From contig NZ_RDBO01000020.1 of assembly GCF_008120935.1 (NCBI RefSeq), forward strand, positions 1-64,000: a stretch of 64,000 nucleotides of DNA, given 5' to 3'. The notes under the pieces were generated by a model that was not told the DNA's origin, did no database searches, and saw nothing but the letters and a program-made list of their open reading frames with translations. Within the stretch, counting starts at the first letter, position 1. The number at the start of each line of letters is the position of its first letter. This stretch comes from Streptomyces sp. sk2.1 (GTDB lineage Bacteria > Actinomycetota > Actinomycetes > Streptomycetales > Streptomycetaceae). Below are positions 1,852-18,750 of the stretch, piece by piece. Position numbers and translations under genes: made by a program.

Positions 1852-1934
1852 CGTGATCCGGACGCGGGGCATCACGTCGTGGCGGTTTCGACGCGGGACG
1901 TCACGTCGTGTTCCGGACGCGGGACGTCACGTCG
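1852..1934. repeat. Degenerate 26-29 bp direct repeats at the 3' end of cvnD
   Basis: About three copies of a unit built around ACGCGGGACGTCACGTCGTG follow the terminator hairpin and run into the cvnD stop codon. The last copies differ by only a few bases. No coding role is apparent. Confidence 0.6.
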
Positions 1935-2532
1935 TGGCGGGTTCGCGGACGCGTTCCGCGCGGGCCAGGGCGTGTTCGACCACCGTGGCCAGGACCTCCC
2001 GCACGGAGGAGCGGTCGCGCGCGTCGCACATGAGCACGGGCACCTCGGGGTCCAGGTCCAGTGCGGCCTGCACCGTCTCGGTGGGGAACCGGTCGGCCCC
2101 CTCGAAGCAGTTCACCGCGACGGCGAACGGGATGGCGCGGCGTTCGAAGTAGTCGACCGCCGCGAAGCAGTCCTCCAGGCGCCGGGTGTCCGCGAGCACG
2201 ACCGCGCCCAGGGCGCCCTGCGCCAGTTCGTCCCACAGGAACCAGAACCGGTCCTGTCCCGGTGTGCCGAAGAGGTAGAGCACCAGGTCCTCGCGGAGGG
2301 TGATCCGGCCGAAGTCCATGGCCACCGTGGTGGTGGTCTTCGCCTCCACCCCGGCCAGGTCGTCCACCGGACGGCCCGCCTCGCTCAGCCTCTCCTCCGT
2401 GCGCAGCGGCCTGATCTCGCTGACCGCGCCGACCAGGGTCGTCTTGCCCACTCCGAAGCCGCCCGCCACCAGGATTTTCAGGGTAACGGGCTCCACGGGC
2501 CGCTTCTTGCGGCTAGAGCGCCCGAAGGCCAT
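1927..2532 (-). CDS. cvnD: Conservon GTP-binding protein CvnD
   Basis: This is a 201-aa Ras-like small GTPase of the conservon type. The P-loop GGFGVGKTT is at about residues 28-36, a TTTTVAMDFG switch follows, and FGTPGQDRFW corresponds to the G3 region. In the known S. coelicolor conservon model, CvnD forms a membrane-associated complex with the sensor kinase-like CvnA, the roadblock protein CvnB and the DUF742 protein CvnC, resembling a eukaryotic G-protein-coupled arrangement. Its start overlaps the end of cvnC by 20 bp, which points to translational coupling. No cytochrome P450 gene follows, unlike some other conservons. Which numbered cvn locus this corresponds to cannot be decided here. 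Confidence 0.92.
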   Translation of the reverse strand: MAFGRSSRKKRPVEPVTLKILVAGGFGVGKTTLVGAVSEIRPLRTEERLSEAGRPVDDLAGVEAKTTTTVAMDFGRITLREDLVLYLFGTPGQDRFWFLWDELAQGALGAVVLADTRRLEDCFAAVDYFERRAIPFAVAVNCFEGADRFPTETVQAALDLDPEVPVLMCDARDRSSVREVLATVVEHALARAERVREPATT

Positions 2533-2935
2533 TGATCACCTCGCGAAGAATGTTCACGTCCGGCAGCTCGGCCGGCGGAACGGGACGGGTCACATGCACC
2601 AGTTCGTCCTCGACGAGGTCGCCGACCAGCACCCGGACCACCCCTACGGGGAGGTCGAGGCCGGCCGCGAGCTCGGCGATCGACTGGGGCACGCCGGAAC
2701 AGAGCTCGATGATCTCCACGTGTTCCGGGGAGAGCGTCTGGTCCCTGCCCGGATCGTCGGCTTCCGGTTCGGGGACGACGATCGCGATCAGGTCGAGCCG
2801 GTGACGGGAGGCGCTGCTGGTACGGCCCCGGGTCATCGCGTACGGACGGACCACCGGCCCCGCTTCGGCGTCGTACCAGTGCGAAGCCCGCGGGTCGGTG
2901 GGCGTTGCCGGAGATCTGGAGGATTCGGCGCTCAC
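2513..2935 (-). CDS. cvnC: Conservon DUF742 protein CvnC
   Basis: This 140-aa protein starts at GTG 2935. DUF742 proteins carry a winged-helix-like fold; the segment SIAELAAGLDLPVGVVRVLVGDLVEDELV (about residues 85-113) is the conserved helix-turn-helix-like core, and VRPYAMTRGRT precedes it. In the conservon model it bridges the GTPase and the roadblock protein. Its start lies 7 bp after the cvnB stop and its end overlaps cvnD, so the four genes form one tight operon. DNA binding has not been established for the family. Confidence 0.9.
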   Translation of the reverse strand: MSAESSRSPATPTDPRASHWYDAEAGPVVRPYAMTRGRTSSASRHRLDLIAIVVPEPEADDPGRDQTLSPEHVEIIELCSGVPQSIAELAAGLDLPVGVVRVLVGDLVEDELVHVTRPVPPAELPDVNILREVINGLRAL

Positions 2936-2942
2936 CGTCCAC

Positions 2943-3386
2943 TCACCCCCCGGCGGCCGAACCGGGCGTCCGTGGGGCGTTGGCCAGGTGTGCGCCGACC
3001 CGCTTGACCATCAGCGTCATCTCGTACGCCACCTGGCCGACGTCGGAGTCGGCGTCGGCCAGCACCGCGAGACAGCTCCCGTCCCCGGCCGCGGTGACGA
3101 AGAGGAACGCCTCGTCGAGTTCGACGACGGTCTGGCGGACCCTGCCCGCGTCGAAGTGCCGCCCGACTCCCTTGGCGAGGCTGTGGAAGCCGGAGGCGAC
3201 GGCCGCCAGGTGCTCGCTGTCCTCGCGGGTCAGGCCCTTCGACGTGCCGGTGGCGAGACCGTCGCTGGAGAGCACCAGCGCCTTGTGGATGCTGGAGACC
3301 CGCTCGACGAGTTCGTCGAGGAGCCAGTTGAGCTGGCCGGAGCCCTGGCGTGCGGCATCGGTCGCAGCGACGTTCGGTGCGGTCAT
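2943..3386 (-). CDS. cvnB: Conservon roadblock/LC7 protein CvnB
   Basis: This 147-aa protein has a roadblock/LC7 domain: LNWLLDELVERVSSIHKALV near the N-terminus, followed by alternating strands and the AVASGFHSLAKGVG helix. Roadblock proteins regulate small GTPases, which fits the neighbouring cvnD. The ATG at 3386 overlaps the stop of cvnA by 4 bp (ATGA), so translation is probably coupled. Confidence 0.92.
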   Translation of the reverse strand: MTAPNVAATDAARQGSGQLNWLLDELVERVSSIHKALVLSSDGLATGTSKGLTREDSEHLAAVASGFHSLAKGVGRHFDAGRVRQTVVELDEAFLFVTAAGDGSCLAVLADADSDVGQVAYEMTLMVKRVGAHLANAPRTPGSAAGG

Positions 3387-6238
3387 GGACCGTCCCCTCC
3401 CGGAGTGGTTCCTTGTGCTGTGTCACCGGGACCGGACACGTCCTCGGCGTTCTGCCGACGTCCGCGCTGCCAGCCGCGTTGGAGCGAAGCCATGCGGCTG
3501 CGTACCTCGTCCGCGTCGCGGTCGAAGTCCTGGGCCGGGTCCGTCCGGGCCGGTTCCGCGTCACGGAGGCCCGAGTCCTCGCGCAGCTGCGGGGCGAGGC
3601 TGGCCTGCCGGACGCGGCGGGGCAGCCCTCCCACGGTCTCGCGGGTGCTCGGGGCCCCGGAGGGAGCGGGCCCTGCGGGGGTGGCGGGCTCGGTGGGTTT
3701 CCGGAAGCCGGTGGGCTGCCGGGGTTCGGTGGCGGCACCGGGGTGCCACGGGGCGGCGGCCGGCGGCGTGCTGCCCGGGTCCGGCGATCCGGCGCCCGGT
3801 CCGGGGCGTGCGGTGTCGAGGGACCTGGGGCCGGAGGTCTCGGCGGGGCCGCGCCCGGCGGCCGCGGAGCGGGCCCGGCCCGCCTCGTCGACCCGGCGGC
3901 CGTTGTCGGCGACCAGGGTCGGCGGCTTGCGGCGGGGCAGCGGCACCGGCCTGCCGGGGTGCGCGTCGGCCGCGGTCCCGGCCGGCCGGTCCGCGGCCTG
4001 CTGGTGCTGGTCGCGGCCGTCGTCGCGGCGCAGCTCGCGGGCCCGGAAGATGCCGCCGCGCTCGCTCTCGGTGTCGTCGAGGTCCGAGGCGCCGCCCAGC
4101 AGGGGGTCGAGCAGCGGGTCGTCGTCGAAGTCCAGTGCTCCGACGGGGCCTTCGAGCTCCACGGGGCCGTCCAGGAGGGCCGGGTCCACGAGGCCGGTCG
4201 GCACGGGGGCGAGGGTGGAGGGCCGGCCGGTCCGGCGGTCCGGCGCGCCGTCGCCGCCCGTCGGCTCCCCGGCCTTCCGTCCGCCCGCTCCGATCGCCCG
4301 CTCGGCCCTGCGGTCCAGGCGGAATCCGGTGCCGTGGGTGTCCGGGGCGTCGGTGAGCAGCGCCGCCGGGATGAAGACGACCGCGGTCGTACCCCCGTAG
4401 GGGGAGGGTTGCAGCGAGACCCGGACGCTCTGGCGCTGCGCGAGGCGGCTGACCACGAACAGGCCGAGCCGGTCGGTGTCGGAGAGTTCGAACTCGGGGG
4501 TCTCGGCGAGCCGCAGATTGGCGTCCAGGAGGACTTCGGGGGGCATGCCCAGGCCGCGGTCGTGGATCTCCAGCGTGAAGCCGTTGGCGACGCGTTCGCC
4601 GTGCACCTGGACCGCGGTGTGCGGGGGCGAGAACACGGTCGCGTTCTCCAGGAGTTCGGCGATCAGATGGGTGAGGTCGGCGACCGCGGGGCCGCCCACG
4701 CCGATGCGGGGCAGTCGGCGGACCTCGATCCGCTCGTAGTCCTCGACCTCGGCGACCGCCGCCCGCACCACGTCCATCAGCTGGATCGGCTTGCGCCACT
4801 GGCGGGAGGGCGCGGCGCCGGAGAGGATCACCAGGCCCTCGGCGTGGCGCCGCATGCGGGTGGTCAGGTGGTCGAGGCGGAAGAGGTCCGCGAGTTCGTC
4901 GGTGTTCTCGGTACGGCGCTCCATCGTGTCCAGGAGCGTCAGCTGGCGGTGCAGCAGCACCTGGTTGCGGCGGGCGAGGTTGACGAACACCTCGGACACT
5001 CCGCGCCGCATGTCGGCCTGCTTGACCGCGGCCTCGACGGCCGCCCGTTGCAGGGTGTTGAGGGCCTGGCCGACCTGGCCGATCTCGTCGCGCTCGTACT
5101 GGAGGTGCGGGGCCTCCGTCTCCACGTCGACCTGCTCCCCCGCGGCCAGGCGGCGCATCACGCTCGGCAGTCGCACGCCGGAGACCTCGTGGGCGTCCTT
5201 GCGGAGCCTGGAGAGGTCGCGGATGAGTTCGCGGCCGATGCGCACGGAGACGAACAGCGAGGCGACCAGGGCGAGGAATCCGAGGACGCCCGCGACGCCG
5301 GCCTTGATCAGGACGCCGTACCCGGCGGGTTTGCCGCGGTCCTGGAAACGGTTTCCCATCTCGGTGGAGTCGTTGGCCAGCCGCTCCAGGACCGGTGCGG
5401 CCGCCTCCTGCCAGCGCTCGGCGTCGACGGCCCGCGGGTCCTGGGTGGGGCCATCCTGGACGAGGGTCCGCTCCGCGGTCCTGAGCGGTTCGCTGTCCGG
5501 GCTCGCCCAGTACTGCTCGATGCGCTGCCGCTCCGACGCGGGAAGCATCTCGGCGTTGATCTCGTAGAGCAGTTCGCGATTGGCCACGAGGTCGGAGACC
5601 TGGCGCAGTTCGGCGGCGGTGAGCCGGCCCGCGATGAGCGACGAGGCGATCAGGGCGTCCTCGCGGGAGAGCATCTCGCGGGCGCGGGAGATCCCGACCA
5701 GGGCCCGGACCTGTTTGTCCATCGACACGTTCTCCATCGTGCGGAGACCGGTCAGAAAGCGGTAGCAGGGATCTATGAGCCGCCCGTAGAACTCCATCGC
5801 CCTGGAACGGTCGATGGTGCGCTCGTCGACCGATTCACGCAGTGCGCCCAGCCCCTCCACGGTGCCCAGGATGGAGTCGAGCTGGGAATCGTCCTCGGAA
5901 CTGAGGGCCTCGCGAATGTCTTTCTGGCGCGCGCCGTCCTTGAGGCCCGTCAGGACGCGGTCGGTGGCAGTGCGTTGACGTTGCAGGAGCGGGAGGGCGT
6001 CGGAGGCCCTGGGGTCGGCGAGGAAGACGAGGGTCTGGCGGCGCTCGTCCTGAATGGCCCGGACCGTGTCCTCCAGCGGATGGCCGACCTTCTCCACGAT
6101 GGTGCTCGCACTCATCAGTTGTCTGGCCTCGCGCCCCGTCAGATAGGTGGCGAATCCCCAGAGTCCGGTGAGGGAGACGAGCGGCACCAGCAGCAGCGCC
6201 ACGATCTTCCTGCGGATGGACTTTCCGCGAAAGCGCAT
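3383..6238 (-). CDS. cvnA: Conservon sensor histidine kinase-like protein CvnA
   Basis: This 951-aa membrane sensor heads the conservon. A first membrane segment (about residues 13-35) and a second (about 303-333) flank a long extracellular helical region of the nitrate/nitrite-sensing (NIT) type. HAMP and dimerisation regions follow, then a HATPase domain with N-box ELLENA, G1 box DRGLGMP and G2 GLFVV. The last 300 residues are Pro/Gly/Arg-rich and probably disordered, as is common in CvnA proteins. No clear phospho-accepting H-box is visible, and no response regulator gene is adjacent, which fits the idea that CvnA signals through the GTPase CvnD. The start at ATG 6238 precedes a basic N-terminus (MRFRGKSIRRK) right before the first membrane helix. 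Confidence 0.92.
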   Translation of the reverse strand: MRFRGKSIRRKIVALLLVPLVSLTGLWGFATYLTGREARQLMSASTIVEKVGHPLEDTVRAIQDERRQTLVFLADPRASDALPLLQRQRTATDRVLTGLKDGARQKDIREALSSEDDSQLDSILGTVEGLGALRESVDERTIDRSRAMEFYGRLIDPCYRFLTGLRTMENVSMDKQVRALVGISRAREMLSREDALIASSLIAGRLTAAELRQVSDLVANRELLYEINAEMLPASERQRIEQYWASPDSEPLRTAERTLVQDGPTQDPRAVDAERWQEAAAPVLERLANDSTEMGNRFQDRGKPAGYGVLIKAGVAGVLGFLALVASLFVSVRIGRELIRDLSRLRKDAHEVSGVRLPSVMRRLAAGEQVDVETEAPHLQYERDEIGQVGQALNTLQRAAVEAAVKQADMRRGVSEVFVNLARRNQVLLHRQLTLLDTMERRTENTDELADLFRLDHLTTRMRRHAEGLVILSGAAPSRQWRKPIQLMDVVRAAVAEVEDYERIEVRRLPRIGVGGPAVADLTHLIAELLENATVFSPPHTAVQVHGERVANGFTLEIHDRGLGMPPEVLLDANLRLAETPEFELSDTDRLGLFVVSRLAQRQSVRVSLQPSPYGGTTAVVFIPAALLTDAPDTHGTGFRLDRRAERAIGAGGRKAGEPTGGDGAPDRRTGRPSTLAPVPTGLVDPALLDGPVELEGPVGALDFDDDPLLDPLLGGASDLDDTESERGGIFRARELRRDDGRDQHQQAADRPAGTAADAHPGRPVPLPRRKPPTLVADNGRRVDEAGRARSAAAGRGPAETSGPRSLDTARPGPGAGSPDPGSTPPAAAPWHPGAATEPRQPTGFRKPTEPATPAGPAPSGAPSTRETVGGLPRRVRQASLAPQLREDSGLRDAEPARTDPAQDFDRDADEVRSRMASLQRGWQRGRRQNAEDVSGPGDTAQGTTPGGDGP

Positions 6239-6713: not shown

Positions 6714-7184
6714 TTGGAAACGGAAGAGCGTCGGGGTGCGGTGCTGTCGGCACCGGCCGCGGCGGCACGACCTGCGGCGAACGGGGCGAGGATCCCGCGC
6801 CAGCAGCTGTGGGTGGAAGAGCCCGCGGGACGGCGCCGGATGCCGGACCCGGTCCGCACGTCCGCCGTGCGCGCGGTTCTCATCATGTCGCTGACGATCA
6901 TTCAGGCGATGGTGGCGTTCCTGTGCACTCTGACCGGGTCCTGGCTGGCGTTCCCGATGGTGCTGAGCAGCGTGGGCAGCACGGTGGTCGCGACCTGGTC
7001 GGTGCTGGACGTCTGGATCACCCGGCAGGTCTGGAACCAGCGCAACGGCGTGGTCTCCGCGCCGAGCAGTTCGGCACGGCAGCTGCGCCGCGAGCGGCGC
7101 AGGGCACGACGGGCGGCACGGGCCGCGCAGCGGGACGAGGCGCGGATACGCCGCCGGGGCGCGGGAAACCTCTCGCAGGCCTGA
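6714..7184 (+). CDS. Small membrane protein of unknown function
   Basis: This 156-aa protein starts at TTG 6714, preceded by GGGGAG about 10 bp upstream. Two hydrophobic helices (about residues 48-70 and 75-100) are flanked by a disordered Ala/Pro-rich N-terminus and a strongly basic C-terminus (RQLRRERRRARRAARAAQRD), so both ends should be cytoplasmic. No enzymatic motif is seen. It is divergent from the conservon, which could suggest co-regulation but is not evidence of a shared function. I do not recognise a named family. Confidence 0.65.
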   Translation: METEERRGAVLSAPAAAARPAANGARIPRQQLWVEEPAGRRRMPDPVRTSAVRAVLIMSLTIIQAMVAFLCTLTGSWLAFPMVLSSVGSTVVATWSVLDVWITRQVWNQRNGVVSAPSSSARQLRRERRRARRAARAAQRDEARIRRRGAGNLSQA

Positions 7185-7355: not shown

Positions 7356-10300
7356 TCAGGCGTCCTGCTCCGCGGGGGTCCGGTCGGTACCGGGCGGTGT
7401 CGTGGCGCGCTTGAACATGCGGGTGGCGGTGATCTCGCCGTGCACCGTCCCGCCGCCCGGGTCCTGCTGCGGCAGGCCGGGGCGCAGGTGCTCCTCCACG
7501 CTGATGTACTTCAGCCCGGCCCGCAGGTCCGCGTCATTGCGCAACCGGATGACCAGCGGGAATTCCGCGAGTGCCGTGGTGTCGAACAGTCCGGTCGTGT
7601 AGAGCAGCTGCACGCCCAGGGCGTCGGACACCGCGCGCTGGAGCTCCAGCAGATAGGTGGCGTTGGCGCGGCCGATGGGGTTGTCCAGGAAGAGGGTGCC
7701 CGCGTGCCGGTGCTGGTGGCGGTCCCGTCCCCGGTCGTTGCTGCGCAGCGCGGCCATGGTGCAGTACAGGGCGATGGCAGCGGTGAGCAGCTGGCCGCCG
7801 GAGAAGACGTCGCCCATCTGTCCGACCGGGACGCGCTCGGCGCGGAGCACCGCGTCCGGCTTGAGGATCTCCACGGCGACGCCCCTGGGCTCCAGCGCCG
7901 CCTGCACACCGCGCAGCAGGAGGGACATGCCGTCCCTGCGCAGGTCGGAGTTCTTCCTCAGCGCGGCGCGGGTGGCCTCGTCGATGACCTCGCCGAGCCG
8001 CTCGGTGAGCGTCGCCTGGTCGGGTTCCTCGAAGCGGATGCGGAGGAATTCCTGACCGGACCACTCCCCCAGCCCCTCCGGCAGCCGGGAGAGCCGCTGG
8101 GCGGAGCGCAGGGTGGTGAGCGCGGACTCCACGAGACCGCGCAGCCGGTCGACGATGGAGTCGCGGTTGCGTTCCAGCTGGGCCAGTTCGTCGGTGAGCA
8201 CGCGGAGCCGGGGCGCGAAGGCGACGGCCCACTTCTCGGCGTGCTCGGGCAGCGCCGCGGCGGGCAGTTCGCGGATCTGCTGGCGCGCGGGGGTGCGGAC
8301 CTGTTCGTAGCGGGTGGAGTTGGCGTGCCGTACGAGGACGTCGCTCGCTTCCCGTACGGCGCTCTCGGCGGCGGAGAGGTCGGTGGCGCAGCCGCGCAGC
8401 GAGCGGCGGGCCTCGGCCGCGGACTGCCGGGCCTCGTCGAGGCTGCCGGGGTACGGCTCGGGGGCCTCGGCGTCGTCGTCCGCGCCGTGGTCCCTGAGCA
8501 GGTCCCGCAGGAGCGCGGCCGTCTCGTCGAAGCCGCCCGCCGAGTCCTCGGCGGTGCGGTGGGCGTGCAGCAGCTCGGCGTGGGCGGCGCGGGCGGTGTC
8601 CAGCGTCGCGGTGGCGGAGGCCAGTTCGGCCGTGGCGGTGCGCAGGAGGGCCTGGGCCTGCTCGGCATCGGCGGGGACCAGCTCGTCGGGGAGTTCGGTG
8701 TGGTGGGACTCGCCGTCGGCCGGGGCCAGGCGCTCGGCCTCGCCGCGCAGCCGGCCCAGTTGCTCGCTCGCCGTGGAGGCCCGGGTCTCCAGGAGCTGCA
8801 CCAGGGACTCGGCACGGGCCGCGGCGGCCTGCCGGGAGGGCCCGTCGGCTCCGTCGGTTCCTTCGAGGAGCTGGGCGGCCCGGGTGCGGACCTTGTTGGT
8901 GAGCCGGTCCAGTTCGGCGAGGGCGGCGCTCTCGTCGCTCTCGGCGCGGGCCTGCTCGGCGCGCAGGTCCGCGCCGACGCCCACCTTCTCGTACAGCTGG
9001 GAGGCGGCCCGGTACGCCTCGCGCAGGGCGGGGAGCGCGGGGCGCGGGGCGTCGCCGTCGGGCTCCGGGAGCTGCTCGGGGGCGCCCGCGATCTCGGCGC
9101 GTTCGGCGCGCAGGGCGCGGGCCGTGCGCCGGGCGTCGTCGGCGGCGCGCTGCGCGGCCCTGCGGTCCTCGTCGGCGGCGCGGGCCCGCTCCAGGCAGAC
9201 GGTGGCGCGGGCCTCGGACTCGGCCGCCTCGTCGGTCAGTTCGCGGAGCTTCGCCTGCCAGCCGGCGCGTTCACGGAGCCGGTACGCCAGGCCCGCGAGG
9301 GCGTCGGCGGCCCGGCGGGCGCGCTGGGCCGCCTCCTGGCGCTCGTCGCGGACGCGGGCGGTGTCCGCGGCCGCCTCGTCGGCCTCGGCGCGCACCGTAC
9401 GGGCTTCCGCGAGTTCGGCCTCGGCCGTCTCCGCTGCGGTGCGGGCGGTGCCGGCGGCCTCGGCGAGTTCGGCGAGCATGCCGGGCGGGCAGTCGGCGCG
9501 CCAGGAACCGATGCGGGCGGCGAGGGCGCGGTCCGCGGCGAGCCGGGCGGCGAGGGCGCGGATGTCCTCGTCGCGCGCCGCGGCCCGGGTCCTGAGGGCC
9601 TGTCGTTCCTCGTCGGCCGCGTGCTCGTCGTGCATCGCCGGGTTCGGCGGGACGAGGAACACGCCCTCGGTGTGGGGGCCCGCGGCCGGGACGGGGGCGA
9701 GCAGGGCCGCGGCGGTGCCGACGGCGACCGCGGAACGCGGCAGCAGGGCGGCGCCGTCGAGGACCTCGCGGGCGCGGGCGTGCGAGTCGGGGTCGGTGAT
9801 GACCACGCCGTCGACCAGCTCGGGGCGGGTCGCGAGGACCGCCGCGTGGTCGGCGGGGTCCACGGCCTGGGCGAGGTACCGCCAGCCGGGCAGGGCGGGG
9901 ATGCCGTGCTCGCCGAGGTACTCGACGGTGGCCAGGACGTCGGGCCCGGGAGGCAGCAGACCCCCGTCGCCGAGCGCGCCGAGGATCCGCGCGTCGTCGG
10001 CGGCCGCCGTGCGCAGCTCGAAGAGGCGTCGTTCGGCGGAGCCGATGCCCTGGTCGAGCAGCTCCCGCAGTTCGTCGGCGCTGCGGTCGAACTCCTGGGC
10101 CGTGAGCGACCGTTCGCGAACGCCGGGCTGCTGCCCGGGGCCGGTGGGCGCCCGGTCGTCCCGCTCTCCCCCGGCGGGGCGCGAGCCCGTTCCGGCCGGG
10201 CCGGTTTCGGTGCCGTCCGTGCCGTGCGGTGCGGGAAGGCCCAGCAGGTCGGCCAGCCGGTGGTCGGCGGCGATCGACTCGGCGGCCCTGAACTCGGCCT

Positions 10301-12074
10301 CGTACGACTGCTCCGCGGCCTGTGCGGCGTCGGCGGCACGGGCCGCGGCGAGTTCGGCGCGGCTCTCGGCGGCCGCGGCCTCCCTGGCCCGGTCGGCCGC
10401 CGTGCGGGCGGCCTCCCTGGCGGTGTCCCAGGCGGCGACGGCGGACTGCTCGGCGTCGCTCGCGGCGAGGGCGGCGCGCGCCGGGTCGGCGTCGGGCGCG
10501 GTGTCGTCGAGCCAGCCGGCCCGTACCGCCTGGGCCGTCTCCTGTTCGACCTCGGCGAGGCGCTGGCGCAGGTGTCCGGCCTCGCTGCGGGCGCGCTGGG
10601 CCTCGGTGGCGGCGGTGGTGGCGTCCCGGTGGGCGGTCTCGCCCGCGCTCTGCAGGGCGTCGGAACGCTCCTCCTCCTCGTTGGCCAGGTTCTCCCCGGC
10701 CTCCGCGGCGATGTGCAGGGCCTGTACCAGGTCGGCGGCGGCCTCGGCACGGGCGGCGAGCGCGGGCGCGGCGTCCCGTTCGGCCTCCCGGATCGCGGCG
10801 GCCACCCGTGCGGAGCGGTCGCCGGCCGCGCGGTGCCGCAGCACGGCCTCGGCGGCCTGCCAGGCGGAGTGCAGGGTGCGGGCGTCGACCAGTTCGCGGC
10901 GCTGGGCGGCGGCGCCCTTCTCCGCAGCGGCCAGGGCCAGGGAGGCGTGCCGGTAGGCCAGTTCGGCGGCGGCCAGGGCGCTGCGGCCGCGTGCTTCTTC
11001 GGCCGTGGTGACGGTGTGGGCGGCGCCCGTCACCTGCTGGGCGAGTTCGGTGCTGCGGCCGCGTTCCTGACCGGCCCGGACGGAGAGCCTGCGGGCGAGC
11101 GTACGGGTGCGGCGCTCGGCGCCGGCGTGGATGTCCCGGGCGCGGGAGCGGGTGCCCGCGGCCTCCACGATCCGTCCGAGCAGGTCGACCGAGCCCGCCG
11201 TGAAGTCCCGTTCGGCGGTCAGCTCGGCCCGGCGGCCCAGTTTGTTGCCGAAGCCGCCGACCAGGTCCGCGAGGCCGTCCGTGTCCCGGGTGTCGGTGAC
11301 GGCCCGCAGCAGCAGGTCGGTGAAGTCGGAGTCCTTCTTGACCGCGAAGAGGCCCGCCGCCTCGCCCTCGTCGGCGTTCATCTCGCGCTGGTAGCGGAAG
11401 AGTTCGGGGTCGAGTCCGAGGTCCCCGAGGTGTTCGTTCCACCGGTCGTGGATCTCTTCCCAGTGCACGTCGAGGTGCTGGTAGAACTTGCCCGCCTCGG
11501 TCAGGGCGTCGCGGAAGCCCTTCATCGTGCGCCGTCGGCCCCGTGCGCCGGAGGCGCCTTCGGCGGACGGGCGTACGGAGGTGGCCTCGGCGACCGGCAG
11601 GGAGTCCAGGCTGAGTCCGGGTCCGGGCCGGAAGGAGTACCAGGCCTCGGCGAACTTCCTCGGGTCGTTGGAGACCTGCCGGCCGCGCCATTCGCTGACC
11701 TTGCCGACGACCACGCACTCGCCGGTGAGGGTGTGCTGCCACTCCAGGGCGACGTGTCCGCAGTCGTCGGCGAGGAGGAACTTGCGCAGCACGCCGGAGC
11801 TGGCCCCGCCGAGGGTGTTGCGGTGGCCGGGCAGCATCACCGAGAAGATCAGCTTCAGCAGCACCGACTTGCCGCCGCCGTTCTCCAGGAAGAGCACACC
11901 GGCGGGTGCCGGGCGGCGCGGCGGGCCGACCGGCTCCTCCTCGAAGAACTCCGCCTGGGCCGGCGCGGGGTTGGGCACGGGCTCGCCCACTCCGCGCAGG
12001 TCAAGCACGGTGTCGGCGTAGCGCGCACCGGCAGGCCCGATGGAGTAGAGGCGGACCCGGGACAGCTCGTACAT
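7356..12074 (-). CDS. MukB/JetC-like SMC ATPase
   Basis: This 1572-aa protein has the layout of an SMC ATPase. The N-terminal half-domain has Walker A ENGGGKS (residues 64-70). A long Ala/Glu/Arg-rich coiled coil runs to about 680, a globular hinge-like region spans about 680-820 (with PGWRYLAQ and VDGVVITDPD), a returning coil follows, and the C-terminal half has signature FSGGQ (about 1424) and Walker B TLFLDNPIG (about 1460). The size matches MukB (about 1490 aa) and JetC more than canonical SMC. The residue after the Walker B aspartate is Asn (codon at 7680-7682), where the catalytic Glu normally sits. It is the last gene of a leftward three-gene set, 75 bp after its partner, and no JetD-like nuclease follows. 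DNA loop extrusion is the family role; plasmid defence is not shown. Confidence 0.82.
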   Translation of the reverse strand: MYELSRVRLYSIGPAGARYADTVLDLRGVGEPVPNPAPAQAEFFEEEPVGPPRRPAPAGVLFLENGGGKSVLLKLIFSVMLPGHRNTLGGASSGVLRKFLLADDCGHVALEWQHTLTGECVVVGKVSEWRGRQVSNDPRKFAEAWYSFRPGPGLSLDSLPVAEATSVRPSAEGASGARGRRRTMKGFRDALTEAGKFYQHLDVHWEEIHDRWNEHLGDLGLDPELFRYQREMNADEGEAAGLFAVKKDSDFTDLLLRAVTDTRDTDGLADLVGGFGNKLGRRAELTAERDFTAGSVDLLGRIVEAAGTRSRARDIHAGAERRTRTLARRLSVRAGQERGRSTELAQQVTGAAHTVTTAEEARGRSALAAAELAYRHASLALAAAEKGAAAQRRELVDARTLHSAWQAAEAVLRHRAAGDRSARVAAAIREAERDAAPALAARAEAAADLVQALHIAAEAGENLANEEEERSDALQSAGETAHRDATTAATEAQRARSEAGHLRQRLAEVEQETAQAVRAGWLDDTAPDADPARAALAASDAEQSAVAAWDTAREAARTAADRAREAAAAESRAELAAARAADAAQAAEQSYEAEFRAAESIAADHRLADLLGLPAPHGTDGTETGPAGTGSRPAGGERDDRAPTGPGQQPGVRERSLTAQEFDRSADELRELLDQGIGSAERRLFELRTAAADDARILGALGDGGLLPPGPDVLATVEYLGEHGIPALPGWRYLAQAVDPADHAAVLATRPELVDGVVITDPDSHARAREVLDGAALLPRSAVAVGTAAALLAPVPAAGPHTEGVFLVPPNPAMHDEHAADEERQALRTRAAARDEDIRALAARLAADRALAARIGSWRADCPPGMLAELAEAAGTARTAAETAEAELAEARTVRAEADEAAADTARVRDERQEAAQRARRAADALAGLAYRLRERAGWQAKLRELTDEAAESEARATVCLERARAADEDRRAAQRAADDARRTARALRAERAEIAGAPEQLPEPDGDAPRPALPALREAYRAASQLYEKVGVGADLRAEQARAESDESAALAELDRLTNKVRTRAAQLLEGTDGADGPSRQAAAARAESLVQLLETRASTASEQLGRLRGEAERLAPADGESHHTELPDELVPADAEQAQALLRTATAELASATATLDTARAAHAELLHAHRTAEDSAGGFDETAALLRDLLRDHGADDDAEAPEPYPGSLDEARQSAAEARRSLRGCATDLSAAESAVREASDVLVRHANSTRYEQVRTPARQQIRELPAAALPEHAEKWAVAFAPRLRVLTDELAQLERNRDSIVDRLRGLVESALTTLRSAQRLSRLPEGLGEWSGQEFLRIRFEEPDQATLTERLGEVIDEATRAALRKNSDLRRDGMSLLLRGVQAALEPRGVAVEILKPDAVLRAERVPVGQMGDVFSGGQLLTAAIALYCTMAALRSNDRGRDRHQHRHAGTLFLDNPIGRANATYLLELQRAVSDALGVQLLYTTGLFDTTALAEFPLVIRLRNDADLRAGLKYISVEEHLRPGLPQQDPGGGTVHGEITATRMFKRATTPPGTDRTPAEQDA

Positions 12075-12149
12075 GGCGGCGGACTCTCGTCGTTCGGGCG
12101 GTGAAGGCGGTGGGGCGGTGGAGGCGGTGGGGTTGCGAAGGAGAGGTGG

Positions 12150-13076
12150 TCAGGAGTGGAAGGGCAGACCGGCGTCGGCGACCAGTTCCAGGTCGTCGGG
12201 GTCGGGCGGCGGGAGGAGCGTCGCCGTGCCGTCGGTGACCGGGACGACGCCGAGTTCCAGCAGTTCGGCCATGGCGGCGCCGCCGGCCATGTCGCGCACC
12301 TGGAGCTGGTAGCGGGCGGTGGTGCGGAAGGCGCCGCCGGCGTCGTCCCCGGTGCGCTGGAGGAAACCGGAGTCGGTGAGGAAGGCGACGGCCTTCCCGA
12401 CGATGCCGGTGGTGGAACCGGCCAGCCGGCGGGCGTCCTTCGTCGCGCCGGTGGCGCTGCGCCGGGCGTAGATCCGCCATGCGGCTTCGAGTCCGGGGGC
12501 GTCGGTGGCCGGGTCGGTGTTGTCCCCGTGCTCCTCCGCGCGCTCCTCCAGCCGGCGGCACGCCTGACGTACGAAGGAGTCGACGCCGTTGACCGTGATG
12601 CGGCCGATGTACGCGTCGTCGGCGAGGTCCTCGGGGCGGGGGAAGGCCATCGTGGCGACGGCGAGGTGCGCGAGCCCGTGCAGGAAGCGGTCGGCGGAGT
12701 CGGAGGAGGCGCGGCGGGCGTAGTCGCCCATGCGGACGGCGAAGACGGAGTCCTCCCCCGCCGTCACGGCCATGCCCGCGCGGGTCGACACCTCCAGCAC
12801 GACCAGGCCCAGCCCGGTCGCCACCGCGTCGGCGAGCCGGGCGAAGGCGGGCTCCTCCCGGTAGCGGCGGAGCAGTTCGGCGTACTCGGCGTCGCGGGCG
12901 GGCAGCAGTTTGGGCTGGAGGCCGAAGGCGACGAGCCGGGCGGCGTCCGCGGCGTCGGCCGGGGTGACGGACGCGGTGGTGGGGCCCGTCGGGGCGGCGG
13001 GCGCCGCGCCCTCGGTGACGTACGCGGCGGCCGGCTCGCCCCACGCGTCGGCGTGCTGTGCGCGGTGGTCGCTCAC
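12150..13076 (-). CDS. Putative MukE/JetB-like (KITE) partner of the SMC protein
   Basis: This protein of 308 aa starts at GTG 13076, chosen because AAGGAG lies 8 bp upstream (13085-13090); a longer frame to 13217 would translate a 45-bp repeat and is unlikely. The C-terminal half reads like a winged helix (VGKAVAFLTDSGFLQRT, then FRTTARYQLQVRDM), which is the fold expected of MukE/JetB/KITE subunits. Its place between a kleisin-size gene and the SMC gene supports this. No catalytic motif is visible. Assignment rests on gene order, size and secondary-structure impression, not on a strong motif. Confidence 0.55.
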   Translation of the reverse strand: MSDHRAQHADAWGEPAAAYVTEGAAPAAPTGPTTASVTPADAADAARLVAFGLQPKLLPARDAEYAELLRRYREEPAFARLADAVATGLGLVVLEVSTRAGMAVTAGEDSVFAVRMGDYARRASSDSADRFLHGLAHLAVATMAFPRPEDLADDAYIGRITVNGVDSFVRQACRRLEERAEEHGDNTDPATDAPGLEAAWRIYARRSATGATKDARRLAGSTTGIVGKAVAFLTDSGFLQRTGDDAGGAFRTTARYQLQVRDMAGGAAMAELLELGVVPVTDGTATLLPPPDPDDLELVADAGLPFHS

Positions 13077-13106
13077 GACTGTCGCTCCTTGCTGCGGAAA
13101 CTCTTC

Positions 13107-13218
13107 GGTACGGGGCGGACGGCACGGACTCTCGCGACCGCGGTCCGGGACGGTACGGGGCGGGCGGCACGGGCTCTCGCCGTGGGCGTCCGGGGCGGTA
13201 CGGGGCGGGCGGCGCACG
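13107..13218. repeat. 45-bp tandem repeat (2.5 copies)
   Basis: Units run 13107-13151, 13152-13196 and a partial copy 13197-13218, each beginning GGTACGGGGCGG. They fill the gap between the two SMC partner genes, just upstream of the ribosome binding site of the downstream one. The repeat keeps a reading frame open (15-aa period) but is probably non-coding. Confidence 0.75.
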
Positions 13219-13317
13219 TGCCGACGGATGTCATATGCCCGCCGACGGGCCGGGGGCGCCCCCGGCCGGTCGACGCCGTCCGGGAGAGCGGGTGGCGGGC
13301 CGGGCGCGCCGCGCCGG

Positions 13318-14844
13318 TCATGACGCCTCCGAGCGGTCCGCGGCCATCCCGACCGCGTCGAGCAGGGCCGTGCCCACGATCAGGTCGGCGCCGCCGAACT
13401 CCGGGTCGTCGAGCTGCGTCCCGTCGTCCACGGAGAACAGCAGGCGCTGCTCCCCCTGCCGGTAGGCCGTGCCGACCGGCGGGCTCGCGGCGTGCACCGC
13501 GAGCAGGGCGACCAGGTAGGGAAGTTCCGGATCGCGGCGGCGGGCCTCGGCGAGGAGTCCGGAGAGCCGTCTCGGGGCGTCGTGCTCCAGGTCGAGGAGC
13601 TCCATGGCGCTCGCGAGCTGCTCCTCGCTGAACCGGCTGTCGTCCGGGGTGGCGATCAGATCGGGCTCGGGCATCTCGGCGCCCAGGTGCTCCCGCTCCA
13701 GGGGCGGGGTGAGCAGCAGGCCGACGAGGTCGCCCATCCGCACCGAGGAGGGGGTGCGCAGCCCGGTGCCGCGGGCGAAGAAGGCGTCGGTGACGCGGAT
13801 GGCCCGTTCCACGGGGAGCGGCAGCAGCGGGGCGACGAGCTGGCCGTAGAGGTCGAGGCCGGTGCGGGCGGCGGGGGTGGCGAACGCCTGCCGGTCCTGT
13901 TCGGCGCGGAAGAGCGGGCCGGCCTCCAGCAGTCGGGACTGCAGCTGGGTGTGGCGGCGGATGCAGTCCTTGACGATGTCGACGAGTTCGGCGGCGCGCC
14001 TCTTGTGCTCGGGCTCCTCGGCCTCGTCACGGGCCTTGCGGATGTTGGTGAGGATCGCGTTCTCGTGGCGGTAGCGGTCGGCCACGTGGTCCAGCGCCTC
14101 GGCGATCATGTCGGGCACCGCGTTGAGCCAGTCGACCGCCCGGACGTTGCGCCGGGTGGCCTCCAGCGTCTTGCGGAGGGTCTCCGCGTACTGGACGGTG
14201 CGGTAGCGGGCCTGTTCGGCGGCGAGCTGCGCGTCCGCGAGGCGGCCCCGGCTGATGAGGACCTCCAGCTTGACCTCGGCGGCGATCTGGGCGCTGGTGA
14301 CGTCCGTGTCGAGGGCGCCGACCAGGACGTTGACGGCCTCGTCGGTGGTGCGGAGGTAGACCGCGCCGCCGTGGCCCGGGACCTCCTCGATCAGTTTGAA
14401 GTCGTAGTCCCTGCGGGTGTAGAGGCCGTCGGCGCCGAAGGTGCCGTACACGGCGCGGAATCCGCGGTCCACGCTGCCGACGTTGATCAGGTTCTCCAGC
14501 ACCCAGCGGGCCACCCGCTCGTGCTCGGCGGCCGGGCGGGCCGGGGCCTGGGCGGCGACGCGGGGAAGCAGCCTGGCCACTATCTGGTCGTGGTCGGCAC
14601 CGGTGTCGAAGTCCATGTTGAGCGTCACGAGGTCGATCGCGGCGAGCGCCACCTCGGCCATCGCGTAGACCGTGTACTCCCCGGCCAGATTCGCCTTGCG
14701 CACATCGAGGTCGTGCAGCGGCGCCGTGCAGGCGAGCGCGCGCAGCCGCCGCGCGAGCCCCTCGTCGGCGGCCGGACCCGGGGCGGGTCGCGGCCCCGCG
14801 CTGAGCTGGGGCGCAGCGTTGTCCGTGTAGGCAGGCGAAGTCAC
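13318..14844 (-). CDS. Putative MukF/JetA-like (kleisin-type) subunit
   Basis: This 508-aa protein starts at GTG 14844. It is largely helical, with a long central helical stretch (about residues 205-300, e.g. AEQARYRTVQYAETLRKTLE) and a C-terminal part rich in short hydrophobic strands. MukF/JetA/MksF kleisins are of this size, are helical in the middle and are encoded first in the cassette, as here. No motif proves it, so the call depends on the SMC and KITE-like genes downstream. The three genes run in one direction with gaps of 241 and 73 bp, so an operon is likely though not overlapping. Confidence 0.5.
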   Translation of the reverse strand: MTSPAYTDNAAPQLSAGPRPAPGPAADEGLARRLRALACTAPLHDLDVRKANLAGEYTVYAMAEVALAAIDLVTLNMDFDTGADHDQIVARLLPRVAAQAPARPAAEHERVARWVLENLINVGSVDRGFRAVYGTFGADGLYTRRDYDFKLIEEVPGHGGAVYLRTTDEAVNVLVGALDTDVTSAQIAAEVKLEVLISRGRLADAQLAAEQARYRTVQYAETLRKTLEATRRNVRAVDWLNAVPDMIAEALDHVADRYRHENAILTNIRKARDEAEEPEHKRRAAELVDIVKDCIRRHTQLQSRLLEAGPLFRAEQDRQAFATPAARTGLDLYGQLVAPLLPLPVERAIRVTDAFFARGTGLRTPSSVRMGDLVGLLLTPPLEREHLGAEMPEPDLIATPDDSRFSEEQLASAMELLDLEHDAPRRLSGLLAEARRRDPELPYLVALLAVHAASPPVGTAYRQGEQRLLFSVDDGTQLDDPEFGGADLIVGTALLDAVGMAADRSEAS

Positions 14845-15003: not shown

Positions 15004-18000
15004 TCACGGCCGTTCGCCGGGGTGTTCGGGTGCGGGGGCGTCGCGGTCGGGTTCCGGGGTGCCGTATCCCCCGCCGCCGGGGGTGCGGAGCACCAGTACG
15101 TCGCCCGGTTCCAGGTCGGCCGTGTCGCAGCCGCGCAGCGGGGTGGGCGGGCGGCCGTCCGGGTGCTCGACGCACTGGTCCCCCAGGGCGCCCGGTCCGC
15201 CGCCCGCCATGCCGTAGGGGCGGACCCTGCGGTGGCCGGAGAGCAGGGCCACGGTGACGGGTTCCAGGAAGCGGATCCGCCGCTCCACCCCGCAGCCGCC
15301 GTGCCGTCGGCCGGCGCCCCCGCTGCCCTCCCGCACCCGGAAGTCCTCCAGCAGCACGGGGTAGCGCCATTCGAGGACCTCGGGGTCGGTGAGGCGGGAG
15401 TTGGTCATGTGGGTCTGCACGGCGTCGGCCCCGTCGAAGTCCTCGCCCGCGCCCGAGCCGCTCGCCACGGTCTCGTAGTACTGGATCCGTTCGTTGCCGA
15501 AGGTGAGGTTGTTCATGGTGCCCGAGCCCTCGGCCTGGACGCCGAGGGCGGCGTACAGGGCGCCGGTGACGGCCTGGGACGTCTCCACGTTTCCCGCGAC
15601 GGTGGCCGCGGGATGGACGGGGGCCAGCATGGAACCCTCCGGAATCCTCACTTCCAGGGGCTTGAGGCAGCCGCTGTTGAGCGGGATGTCGTCGTCGACC
15701 AGGGTCCGGAAGACGTACAGCACGGCCGCCATGACCACGGACTTCGGCGCGTTGAAGTTGTCCGGCCGCTGCGGCGACGTGCCGGTGAAGTCGATGACCG
15801 CGCCGCGGGCGGCCCGGTCCACGGTGAGGGAGACCTCGATGACCGCGCCGCTGTCGGTCTCGTAGCGGTAGGAGCCGTCGTGCAGTGCGGCGACGGTCCG
15901 GCGGACGGACTCCTCGGCGTTGTCCTGCACGTGGCCCATGTACGCGGCGACGGTCTCGCGTCCGAACTGGTCGACCATGCGCCGGAGTTCGGCGATGCCC
16001 TTCTCGTTGGCGGCGATCTGGGCGCGCAGGTCGGCGATGTTGGTGTCGGGGTCGCGGGAGGGGTGTGCGGCGGTGGTGAGCAGTTCGCGCGTCTCGGCCT
16101 CGCGGAACCTGCCGTCCCGTACCAGCAGCCAGTTGTCGAACAGCACGCCCTCCTCGTGGACGGTGCGGCTGAAGGCGGGCATGGAGCCGGGGCTGATGCC
16201 GCCGATCTCGGCGTGGTGTCCGCGCGAGGCCACGAGGAAGACCGGTTTCCCGCCGTCGTCCCGGTCGTCGAAGACCGGTGTCACGACGGTGACGTCGGGC
16301 AGATGGGTGCCGCCGTGGTACGGGTCGTTGACGGCGTACACGTCCCCGGGCCGCATCGACCCGGCGTTGCGGCGCAGCACCTCCTTGATGGACTCCCCCA
16401 TCGAGCCGAGGTGGACCGGGATGTGCGGGGCGTTGGCGATCAGGTTGCCGTCCGCGTCGAAGAGCGCGCAGGAGAAGTCCAGCCGTTCCTTGATGTTGAC
16501 GGAGTGGGCCGTGTTCTCCAGACGCACACCCATCTGTTCGGCGATCGACATGAAGAGGTTGTTGAAGACCTCCAGCATGACGGGGTCGACACGGGTGCCG
16601 ACGGCCGTGCGCTCCGGTCGCGGGCTCGCCCGGGTGAGCAGCAGGTGGCCGGTGTCGGCGAGCGAGGCCCGCCAGCCCGGGGCGACGACGGTGGTGGCGT
16701 CCGCCTCGGTGATCACGGCGGGGCCGGTCACGGTGTCCCGGGGGCGCAGCTCGTCGCGGCGGTGGAGGGGGGTGTCGTGCCAGTGTCCGTCGGCGAACAT
16801 CCGTACGGTGTCGTGCGGTCGCGGTGGTGCGCCGCCTCGGCGCGGGCGGCCGGCCGGCCTCGGCCGGTGCCTGCCCGCCGTTCCGGCCGCCTCGACCGAG
16901 ACCGCCTCGACGACCAGGGGCTTGTCCATGGTGAACGAGTAGCGGGCGCGGTGCTCGGTGGTGAACGCCTCGGCCATGGCGGGGGCGGTGTCCAGGTCGA
17001 CGGGCAGGCTCGCGTCCGTACCGGCGTAACGCAGGAGCACCCGGGCGCGGGTGCTGATCGCACTGTCGGGGATGGCGTCGGCGCGCAGTTCGGCGCGGGT
17101 GCGGGCGGCCAGTTCGGCGCAGAGCTCGCCCACCTCCTCGCGGGTCGTCGGGTTCAGTTCCGCCTCCACGGACCGTTCGCGCATGGCGGTGGCGTCGGCG
17201 AGGCCGATGCCGTACGCGGAGAGCACACCGGCGAGCGGGGGCACCAGGACCGTGTCGATGCCCAGGGAGTCGGCGACGGCGCAGACGTGCTGGCCACCGG
17301 CACCGCCGAAGCCGGTGAGGGCGTAGCGGGTGATGTCGTGTCCGCGCTGCACGGAGATCCTCTTGACCGCGTTCGCCATGTTGAGCACGGCGATCTCCAG
17401 GAATCCGGCGGCGACCCCGGCGGCGGTGGGCCGGGTCCCGGTGGCGTGCGCGATCTCGTCGGCGAGCGCGTCGAAGCGTTCGCGCACGAGGCCGGCGTCG
17501 AGCGGCAGGTCGCCGTCCGGTCCGAAGACGGCCGGGAAGTACGCGGGCTGGACGCGGCCGAGCATCACGTTGGCGTCGGTGACGGTCAGCGGTCCGCCGC
17601 GGCGGTAGCAGGCCGGGCCGGGGATCGCGCCCGCCGAGTCGGGACCGACCCGGTAGCGCCGGCCGTCGAAGTGCAGGACGGAGCCGCCGCCGGCCGCGAC
17701 GGTGTGGATGCTCATCATGGGGGCGCGCATCCGGACACCGGCCACCTGGGTGCCCAGTTCGCGCTCGAACGCGCCCGCGTAGTGCGACACGTCGGTGGAC
17801 GTGCCGCCCATGTCGAAGCCGATGACGCGGTCGAAGCCGGCCTGTCGGGAGGTGCGGGCCATGCCGACCACGCCGCCGGCGGGCCCGGAGAGCACCGCGT
17901 CCTTCCCCCGGAAGTGGGAGGCCTCGCGCAGCCCGCCGTTGGACTGCATGAACATCAGCCGGATGCCGTCGAGCTCCTCGGCGATCCCCTCGACGTACCG

Positions 18001-18660
18001 GCGCAGGATCGGCGACAGGTAGGCGTCGACGACGGTGGTGTCGCCGCGCGGTACGAGTTTGATCAGCGGGCTCACCTCGTGCGAGCAGCTGATCCGGGTG
18101 AAGCCCGCGGCGCGGGCCGCGTCGGCCACGGCGCGTTCGTGCGCGGGGTGGCGGTAGCCGTGCATCAGGACCACGGCGGCGGCGCTCAGTCCGTCGGCCC
18201 GCGCGGCCGCCAGGGGCGCGGTCAGGGCGTCCGGGTCCAACGGGGTCACGACCCGGCCCCGGGCGTCGATCCGCTCGGGCACCTCGATCACCCGTTCGTA
18301 GAGGGCCTCGGGCAGCAGGATGCGGCGGTCGAAGAGCTTCGGCCGGTTCTGGTACGCGATGCGCAGGGCGTCGCGGAAGCCCCGCGTGATGACCAGGGCG
18401 GTCGGCTCGCCGCGCCGTTCCAGCAGGGCGTTGGTGGCGACCGTCGTGCCGATCCGCACCGTGTCCACCCGGTCGGCGGGGACCGGTTCGCCGGGGCCGA
18501 GGCCCAGCAGTGCCCTGATCCCGGCCACGCCGGCGTCGCGGTAGCGGTCCGGGTCGTGGGAGAGGAGTTTGCGGGTGACCAGCCGCCCGGCCGGGTCCCG
18601 GCCCACGACATCGGTGAACGTGCCGCCCCGGTCGATCCAGAAATCCCAGCGTCCGCTCAT
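15004..18660 (-). CDS. 5-oxoprolinase (ATP-hydrolysing), HyuA-HyuB fusion
   Basis: This 1218-aa enzyme hydrolyses 5-oxo-L-proline to glutamate at the cost of ATP, closing the gamma-glutamyl/pyroglutamate salvage route. Residues 1 to about 690 form the HyuA part with the ATPase-like motifs [13 protein letters not shown] at the N-terminus, [12 protein letters not shown] (about 270), [13 protein letters not shown] and [11 protein letters not shown]. From about 700 on is the HyuB part ([20 protein letters not shown]). The full-length fusion is typical of 5-oxoprolinase rather than split hydantoinases. The ATG at 18660 fits the conserved [13 protein letters not shown] start, although the GGAGGG lies unusually close to it. 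The gene follows a repeat tract and may share a transcript with the helical-repeat gene upstream. Confidence 0.9.
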
Positions 18661-18750
18661 CCCTCCATGGTGGCCCGCGGAGCGGGCCGGGGGCCGGGCG
18701 GCGCGGCGGGTCCGGGGCATGGTCGGCCCGGACGGCGGGTGACGGGCCGT

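Follow-up and report, generated by a model that had tools for sequence, protein, structure and literature searches.

The stretch of DNA analysed here, referred to throughout as the window, comprises 64,000 nucleotides of Streptomyces sp. sk2.1 (contig NZ_RDBO01000020.1) and holds a leftward cassette of three genes that belongs to the type III Wadjet family but is without the nuclease gene jetD. The Wadjet types were reportedly defined by Doron et al. in 2018. The initial annotation, made from the sequence of the window, had described three leftward genes with the order and sizes of a kleisin, a KITE protein and an ATPase of the structural maintenance of chromosomes (SMC) kind, and all three open reading frames (ORFs) were found in the place, strand, order and size that it gave. 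In what follows, the window copy and its close relatives are called core copies and the divergent copies found in some genomes are called accessory copies. The cassette consists of the following parts (lengths in amino acids, aa, or base pairs, bp).

13318..14844, minus strand: jetA-like kleisin gene, 508 aa, first of the cassette, GTG start, matched by PADLOC JetA3
13077..13317: 241-bp jetA-jetB spacer, in which a 45-bp unit occurs 2.4 times
12150..13076, minus strand: jetB-like gene of a putative KITE protein, 308 aa, GTG start, homologous to JetB of accessory loci
7356..12074, minus strand: jetC-like SMC ATPase gene, 1572 aa, matched by PADLOC JetC3
11835..11900, minus strand: JetC Walker A region (FLENGGGKSVLL), residues 59-80
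7743..7808, minus strand: JetC ABC signature (FSGGQ), residues 1423-1444, present in 72 of 72 core JetC
7629..7703, minus strand: JetC Walker B region (LFLDNPIG), residues 1458-1482

The gene order A-B-C is that of Wadjet. Guanine plus cytosine (GC) at third codon positions reaches 0.94 in jetC, 0.93 in the middle gene (a value taken from the 355-aa longest ORF of its frame) and 0.95 in jetA, and by this codon-position composition all three ORFs look like real genes.

Family membership and motor motifs of JetA and JetC

JetA is matched over residues 24-506 by the PADLOC JetA3 model PDLC00567 (621 bits, E 3e-187) and JetC by the JetC3 model PDLC00588 (1405 bits). When both proteins were compared with the PADLOC models of the other Wadjet types at E<=1, models of type III only were matched. 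The earlier suggestion of a Wadjet-type SMC cassette that lacks JetD is borne out and can be narrowed to type III. Pfam has no family for either protein, and a scan of JetA against NCBIfam gave three matches, all at chance level and well under the cut-off. Across the relatives retained for comparison, JetA is 89-96% identical to that of the window over the best segment; these 80 core loci (L001-L080) are the best of at least 546 and are therefore biased towards close relatives.

The ATPase motifs of JetC are intact throughout the core copies. The Walker A sequence LENGGGKS was present in frame in 72 of 72 core JetC that were complete at the end, in 68 cases within the extracted ORF and in four (L011, L015, L058 and L064) upstream of a start that had been misplaced in extraction. 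The 68 are 1539-1653 aa long, and three of the other four have a recognised start that gives about 1,695-1,750 aa. NGGGK was found in 11 of 12 accessory JetC; the exception is L094, whose truncated ORF of only 1067 aa is perhaps broken. LDNPIG occurs at Walker B in every core (72/72) and every accessory (12/12) JetC. In most SMC proteins a catalytic Glu follows the Walker B Asp, and type III JetC has Asn in that place. We considered this Asn as a mark of a dead ATPase in the core copies and rejected the idea, as relatives linked to JetD have the same residue; the motif is shared by core and accessory JetC alike and is thus a trait of type III, not a sign of decay. As judged from this residue, ATP hydrolysis by type III Wadjet may be unusual.

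The middle gene

Compared with Pfam and PADLOC at E<=1, the 308-aa protein has no match of its own. Its identity to the protein in the JetB position is 39-53% at 11 of 15 accessory loci of type III, and 30-33% at the other four; at eight of these 15 the range is 32-49%. When two accessory JetB proteins were scanned singly, one matched JetB3 models (best E 7e-4), and within the JetB alignment up to six of 22 members matched any one JetB3 model, weakly (best E 0.00076). The identification of the two smaller proteins as JetA and JetB is accordingly clear for JetA from PADLOC, and for JetB is indicated by homology to complete operons together with weak model matches. As a side observation, the Pfam family DUF6063 was matched weakly by six of the 22 JetB relatives (best E 0.0074), which points to a possible link between DUF6063 and KITE subunits.

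Absence of JetD

A six-frame search with a profile of eight JetD3 proteins found no JetD in the window, in agreement with the earlier remark that the set holds no JetD/MksG, and none in the 80 core loci or in five core loci of the sister genus (L143-L147). Of the 18 accessory loci of the JetA tree, 16 gave a JetD with the same profile. There was room for the gene to be seen, the jetC stop and at least 1.5 kb downstream being contained in 72 of the 80 core loci.

The genome of the host was likewise without a match to the actinobacterial JetD3 model PDLC00594 (E<=1), to PF09983 (E<=1) or to PF11795 (E<=0.001). It does encode a type II JetD (DUF2399), directly after a type II JetC on contig C285 (L151:4179-9961), and this JetD belongs to a distinct Wadjet system of a different type; two ORFs upstream of the pair, tested as its A and B genes, gave no matches. 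The host assembly is in 309 contigs and the cassette lies inside a long one. Pfam PF09983 or PF11795 alone proved insufficient for detecting JetD: PF09983 failed to list four of the 11 genomes with a clear JetD3 (G007, G022, G090 and G094), for which reason the PADLOC JetD3 model and our own profile were used.

Distribution and co-inheritance

Prevalence was taken from evenly drawn samples, unlike the 80 loci. JetA3 was found in 147 of 150 Streptomyces genomes (146/147 of those of good quality), the matches including two weaker ones (G081, E 4e-101; G121, E 1e-30), in all 14 genomes of the sister genus, and in 185 of 197 genomes of an order-wide sample that was mostly Streptomyces. In the neighbouring family it was found in three of 14 genomes; one of these matches is very weak, and the other two, which are stronger, fall among the accessory copies.

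The nuclease is distributed quite differently. A clear type III JetD (E<1e-40) was present in 11 of the 150 Streptomyces genomes, all of them among the 13 with at least two JetA3 matches, and in none of the 134 with a single JetA3 (Fisher p 7e-15, ignoring phylogeny). The cut-off matters here, since E<=1 would give 51/150, and the best match below the 11 clear genomes has E 2e-7; the ten genomes with best JetD3 values of E 2e-7 to 8e-4 are all listed by PF09983, and so probably hold other JetD types. PF09983 itself was matched in 18/150 genomes and type II JetD in 58/150 (E<=1e-10, fragments included), and 79 of the 147 JetA-positive genomes had neither PF09983, JetD3 nor type II JetD. In four genomes assembled as single contigs (G005, G013, G015 and G031) the core JetA was present and JetD3 had no match. 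The confinement of JetD3 to genomes with more than one JetA indicates that JetD goes together with the divergent second copy rather than with the core one. No JetD family examined is co-inherited with the core copy, and the search for a strictly co-inherited JetD elsewhere, which the initial annotation had proposed as a way to refute its reading, found none.

Core and accessory copies

Where a genome has both kinds (eight genomes), identity to the window proteins is 80-91% for the core copy; accessory copies are 25-59% identical to them. The second copies of all 11 JetD3 genomes are divergent. At accessory loci JetD comes after JetC, and the JetC and JetD ORFs have lower third-position GC (0.66-0.87, for genes measured at their ends). 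Among 72,556 plasmid records no core copy was found at >=60% identity; there were four weaker JetA matches, all <60%, and the three plasmid relatives of JetA that were inspected all stand in four-gene operons whose last gene is JetD. No JetA was found in 50,697 phage records.

Two accessory loci deserve separate mention. In G090, JetD3 matches lie about 16 kb from both chromosome ends on opposite strands (G090:C1:15696-16697 and 9222617-9223438), which probably reflects an accessory Wadjet carried by terminal inverted repeats. At L132, in genome G169, JetD3 stands by a jetC fragment with no recognisable second jetA, and this is probably a degraded accessory system.

Phylogeny, selection and chromosome position

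In the JetA tree the 32 core rows form one clade with 100/100 support, and the 18 accessory rows fall outside it. A concatenated JetABC tree, made with a quick method, also unites its 13 core rows (Shimodaira-Hasegawa-like approximate likelihood ratio test, SH-aLRT, 100), with several long accessory branches meeting in it and the L001 row being two-thirds gaps. Both trees were rooted at the midpoint, and the direction of change, a loss rather than an original lack of JetD, is therefore what we infer from them. As JetD is present in every relative able to show it, one loss in the streptomycete ancestor would be the simplest history.

The core copies are under purifying selection. In close pairs the ratio of non-synonymous to synonymous substitution rates (dN/dS) is 0.06-0.12 for JetA (seven pairs), 0.13-0.19 for JetB (six pairs, the pair L033-L042 having been dropped because its ORF was misparsed to 21 aa) and 0.12-0.19 for JetC (seven pairs, two of which were limited to the stretch of L001 that its contig contains); three accessory pairs gave 0.13-0.32. 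The median identity of JetA lies 10-12 points above that of the neighbouring hydantoinase, HEAT and ankyrin genes. In 27 of 31 chromosomes assembled as a single contig, the distance from the core copy to one end is 0.2-2.4 Mb and the copy is read in the direction of that end, with sizes rounded to 0.1 Mb; the other four do not show this arrangement.

Genomic setting

The genes on either side of the cassette are as follows.

6714..7184, plus strand: convergent gene of a two-helix membrane protein, 156 aa, a neighbour and not judged a member of the complex
15004..18720, minus strand: 5-oxoprolinase/hydantoinase gene with Pfam matches, upstream neighbour, outside the complex

The membrane protein gene had been described before as convergent and two-helix, and this holds, two hydrophobic stretches being visible in the protein by eye. 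It follows jetC in 55 of the 72 core loci with room and in none of the five sister-genus loci; as a frequent but not obligatory neighbour, it was rejected as a fourth subunit. The hydantoinase gene was seen at 36 of 80 loci and is common to part of the genus. Within Streptomyces core loci the neighbours include the HEAT gene in 57/80, the membrane protein gene in 55/80 and a sensor kinase gene in 53/80, counts that are limited by contig ends and a 10-kb flank. In genomes that also have an accessory copy, six of eight core copies had at least one of the window neighbours.

The gap between jetA and jetB has a median of 130 bp at core loci, with extremes of -1534 and 988 of which some are due to misplaced starts. 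At accessory loci the two genes overlap by 4 bp in nine of the 12 listed and by more in the other three. The 45-bp repeat of the window lies at 13106-13213 inside its jetA-jetB spacer, and the median core spacer is shorter. Elsewhere in the window, genes of a NIT-domain sensor kinase, a roadblock protein and a small GTPase-like protein are clustered on the minus strand at 1927-6238, in a grouping that resembles the conservons of Streptomyces; and a tRNA-Arg called by ARAGORN at 22862-22957 (plus strand) sits within a long AAA-domain ORF (21650-23284) and is probably false.

Discussion

We favour, with a probability of roughly 60%, the explanation that the cassette is a Wadjet type III JetABC that lost its JetD in the streptomycetacean ancestor and has been kept as a vertically inherited auxiliary condensin. 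The most fitting reading of a complex that is near-universal, constrained, intact in its motor motifs and without a cutter is that of a household SMC complex with its origin in a defence system. The loss of JetD and the retention of the core copy are well supported; the step from conservation to a role in organising the chromosome is a proposal, for which MksBEF of Pseudomonas provides a precedent by analogy. In such a complex the JetA kleisin and the JetB KITE protein would link two JetC coiled-coil ATPases, and JetABC would, like Wadjet, use ATP to bind and extrude DNA. Without JetD there would be no cutting once extrusion stalls or completes, and the complex might then compact or link host DNA as an auxiliary condensin beside SMC-ScpAB, like MksBEF of P. 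aeruginosa. The initial annotation had put a nuclease-less condensin and a defence system with an unlinked effector side by side; genus-wide conservation would favour the household role over the other.

A number of observations weigh against this explanation. Conservation of the neighbouring GntR gene equals that of JetA, and JetB and JetC lie 6 points below JetA. The middle gene is assigned to JetB by its position, its homology to the JetB proteins of full operons and weak model scores, with a KITE fold that is presumed; the AlphaFold2 models of JetB and JetA are of a confidence too low for use in fold searches (mean predicted local distance difference test score, pLDDT, 46 and 50, respectively), and searches of solved structures by sequence with JetA, JetB and JetC returned nothing relevant. 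The accessory stretches L108 and L109 have too little sequence beyond JetA to show a JetD. G128 and G141 have two JetA matches and no JetD3, and G169, a genome outside the 150, has JetD3 with a single JetA match and a jetC fragment beside JetD3. A window neighbour was found at one of five sister-genus loci (HEAT, at L144), so that a single ancestral site for the whole family is not established, and at L097 and L099 no window neighbour was found beside the core copy (2/8). Finally, a surface released from binding JetD might be expected to show as an excess of core-specific changes, and none was found: at columns conserved among accessory copies, the core is fixed to another residue in 0/52 positions of JetA, 0/16 of JetB and 2/104 of JetC, and the same test on two accessory subclades of two to four rows gave 5, 3 and 12 and 0, 2 and 4 for JetA, JetB and JetC. 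The test gives no support either for or against JetD binding. Nearly all the residues conserved in the accessory relatives have thus been kept, and an unknown partner could still use the surface.

The first of the other explanations, which we regard as improbable though worth bearing in mind, is defence without cutting, in which JetABC fully extrudes small circular DNA and only compacts and silences it, in the manner proposed for Smc5/6 and the viral circles of eukaryotes. Smc5/6 compacts circular DNA to prevent viral gene expression, according to the accessible text of PMC10586767, and conservation of the motor, including the residues common to JetD-bearing systems, leaves room for a silencing role or an unknown partner. 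However, the presence of the cassette in 147 of 150 genomes, with neighbours common across much of the genus, is unlike the patchy occurrence of JetD-bearing copies, and the core copy is absent from the plasmid and phage records searched. The Streptomycetaceae are known for their linear chromosomes, and on the same slender odds the cassette might be a bacterial counterpart of Smc5/6, a disarmed Wadjet motor that draws in small circles entirely and silences them uncut, and leaves the large linear chromosome and linear plasmids free or gently organised.

Somewhat more doubtful is defence with an unlinked effector, in which JetABC would recruit a nuclease from another locus, be it a JetD of a different type or some unrelated protein. 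The type II JetD of the host genome and the retained residues speak for this, but that JetD lies directly behind its own JetC2 and such genes occur in 58/150 genomes only, and more than half of the JetA-positive genomes (79/147) have none of PF09983, JetD3 and JetD2, a count that covers no search for unrelated effectors. It is very unlikely that JetD is present and was missed through incomplete assembly or divergence past recognition. The 309 contigs and the failure of PF09983 to list four of 11 clear genomes could be taken to suggest as much, but the cassette is within a long contig, the JetD3 search of the host genome was empty at E<=1, the 72 core loci with downstream room show no JetD there, and the four single-contig genomes have the core JetA and no JetD3 match. 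A decaying, functionless remnant of a defence system, for which only the loss of the defining nuclease speaks, is largely refuted by the ATPase motifs in 72/72 core JetC, dN/dS of 0.06-0.19 and presence in 147/150 genomes.

The nuclease-less condensin that we prefer can be set beside several known systems. With Wadjet type III (JetABCD) it shares the JetA3 and JetC3 families, the order A-B-C and the ATPase motifs including LDNP; it differs in being without JetD, in being near-universal in the genus and not patchy, in a jetA-jetB pair that is usually spaced and not overlapping, and in extra segments of the core proteins (JetB residues 4-12 and 17-26; JetC 164-177 and 617-651). With auxiliary condensins of the MksBEF type it has in common the genes of an SMC, a kleisin and, by homology, a KITE protein, without a nuclease and beside a canonical SMC. 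The window JetA and JetC match type III PADLOC models only and by that comparison fall outside the Mks/type I family, and the nuclease was therefore probably lost separately from MksBEF of P. aeruginosa, whose sequences were not aligned directly. SMC-ScpAB is an SMC complex of the same cell but of a different family: the canonical smc of the host lies at G000:C285:1210163-1213819 (916 bits), and none of the seven SMC_prok_B (TIGR02168) matches of the host genome at E<=0.001 is the window JetC.

MksBEFG of Corynebacterium glutamicum and Mks (Ept) of Mycobacterium smegmatis are, in the accessible texts of PMC7083940 and PMC10123090, second SMC complexes of actinobacteria with a kleisin and a KITE protein; the C. 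glutamicum operon includes MksG/JetD (PMC7083940), which the window cassette does not. The precedents from these species point in both directions. C. glutamicum MksBEFG acts on plasmids and not on chromosome architecture, as the same two texts have it, which counts against a chromosomal role, and M. smegmatis Mks is placed near replisomes by a citation in the accessible text of a paper on Streptomyces SMC (PMC13121528), which counts in favour of one. Wadjet occurs in 42% of Actinobacteria and shows enrichment towards the ends of Streptomyces chromosomes, according to a survey of defence systems in actinobacteria whose accessible text does not mention JetD-less sets (PMC10482375). The word 'Wadjet' is absent from the main texts of two Streptomyces SMC papers (PMC13121528 and PMC8410768), and in literature searched by titles and the beginnings of abstracts we found no description of a JetD-less type III Wadjet in streptomycetes.

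Counts of JetA or JetC alone would inflate Wadjet immunity in the Streptomycetaceae, and caution is needed on this point. With the core cassette, the motor of Wadjet occurs naturally apart from its cutter, and does so in bacteria that are amenable to genetics; some strains hold the core JetABC as well as a complete accessory JetABCD. This permits one to ask whether Wadjet-type motors act on chromosomes and by what route an SMC complex of defence turns into a household condensin, and it raises the question of whether chromosome folding in Streptomyces depends on an SMC complex that goes unmentioned in the main texts of the two SMC papers (PMC13121528 and PMC8410768). Taken with its retention across the family, the cassette suggests that, early in the streptomycete family, a machine of defence came to serve the household task of folding DNA.

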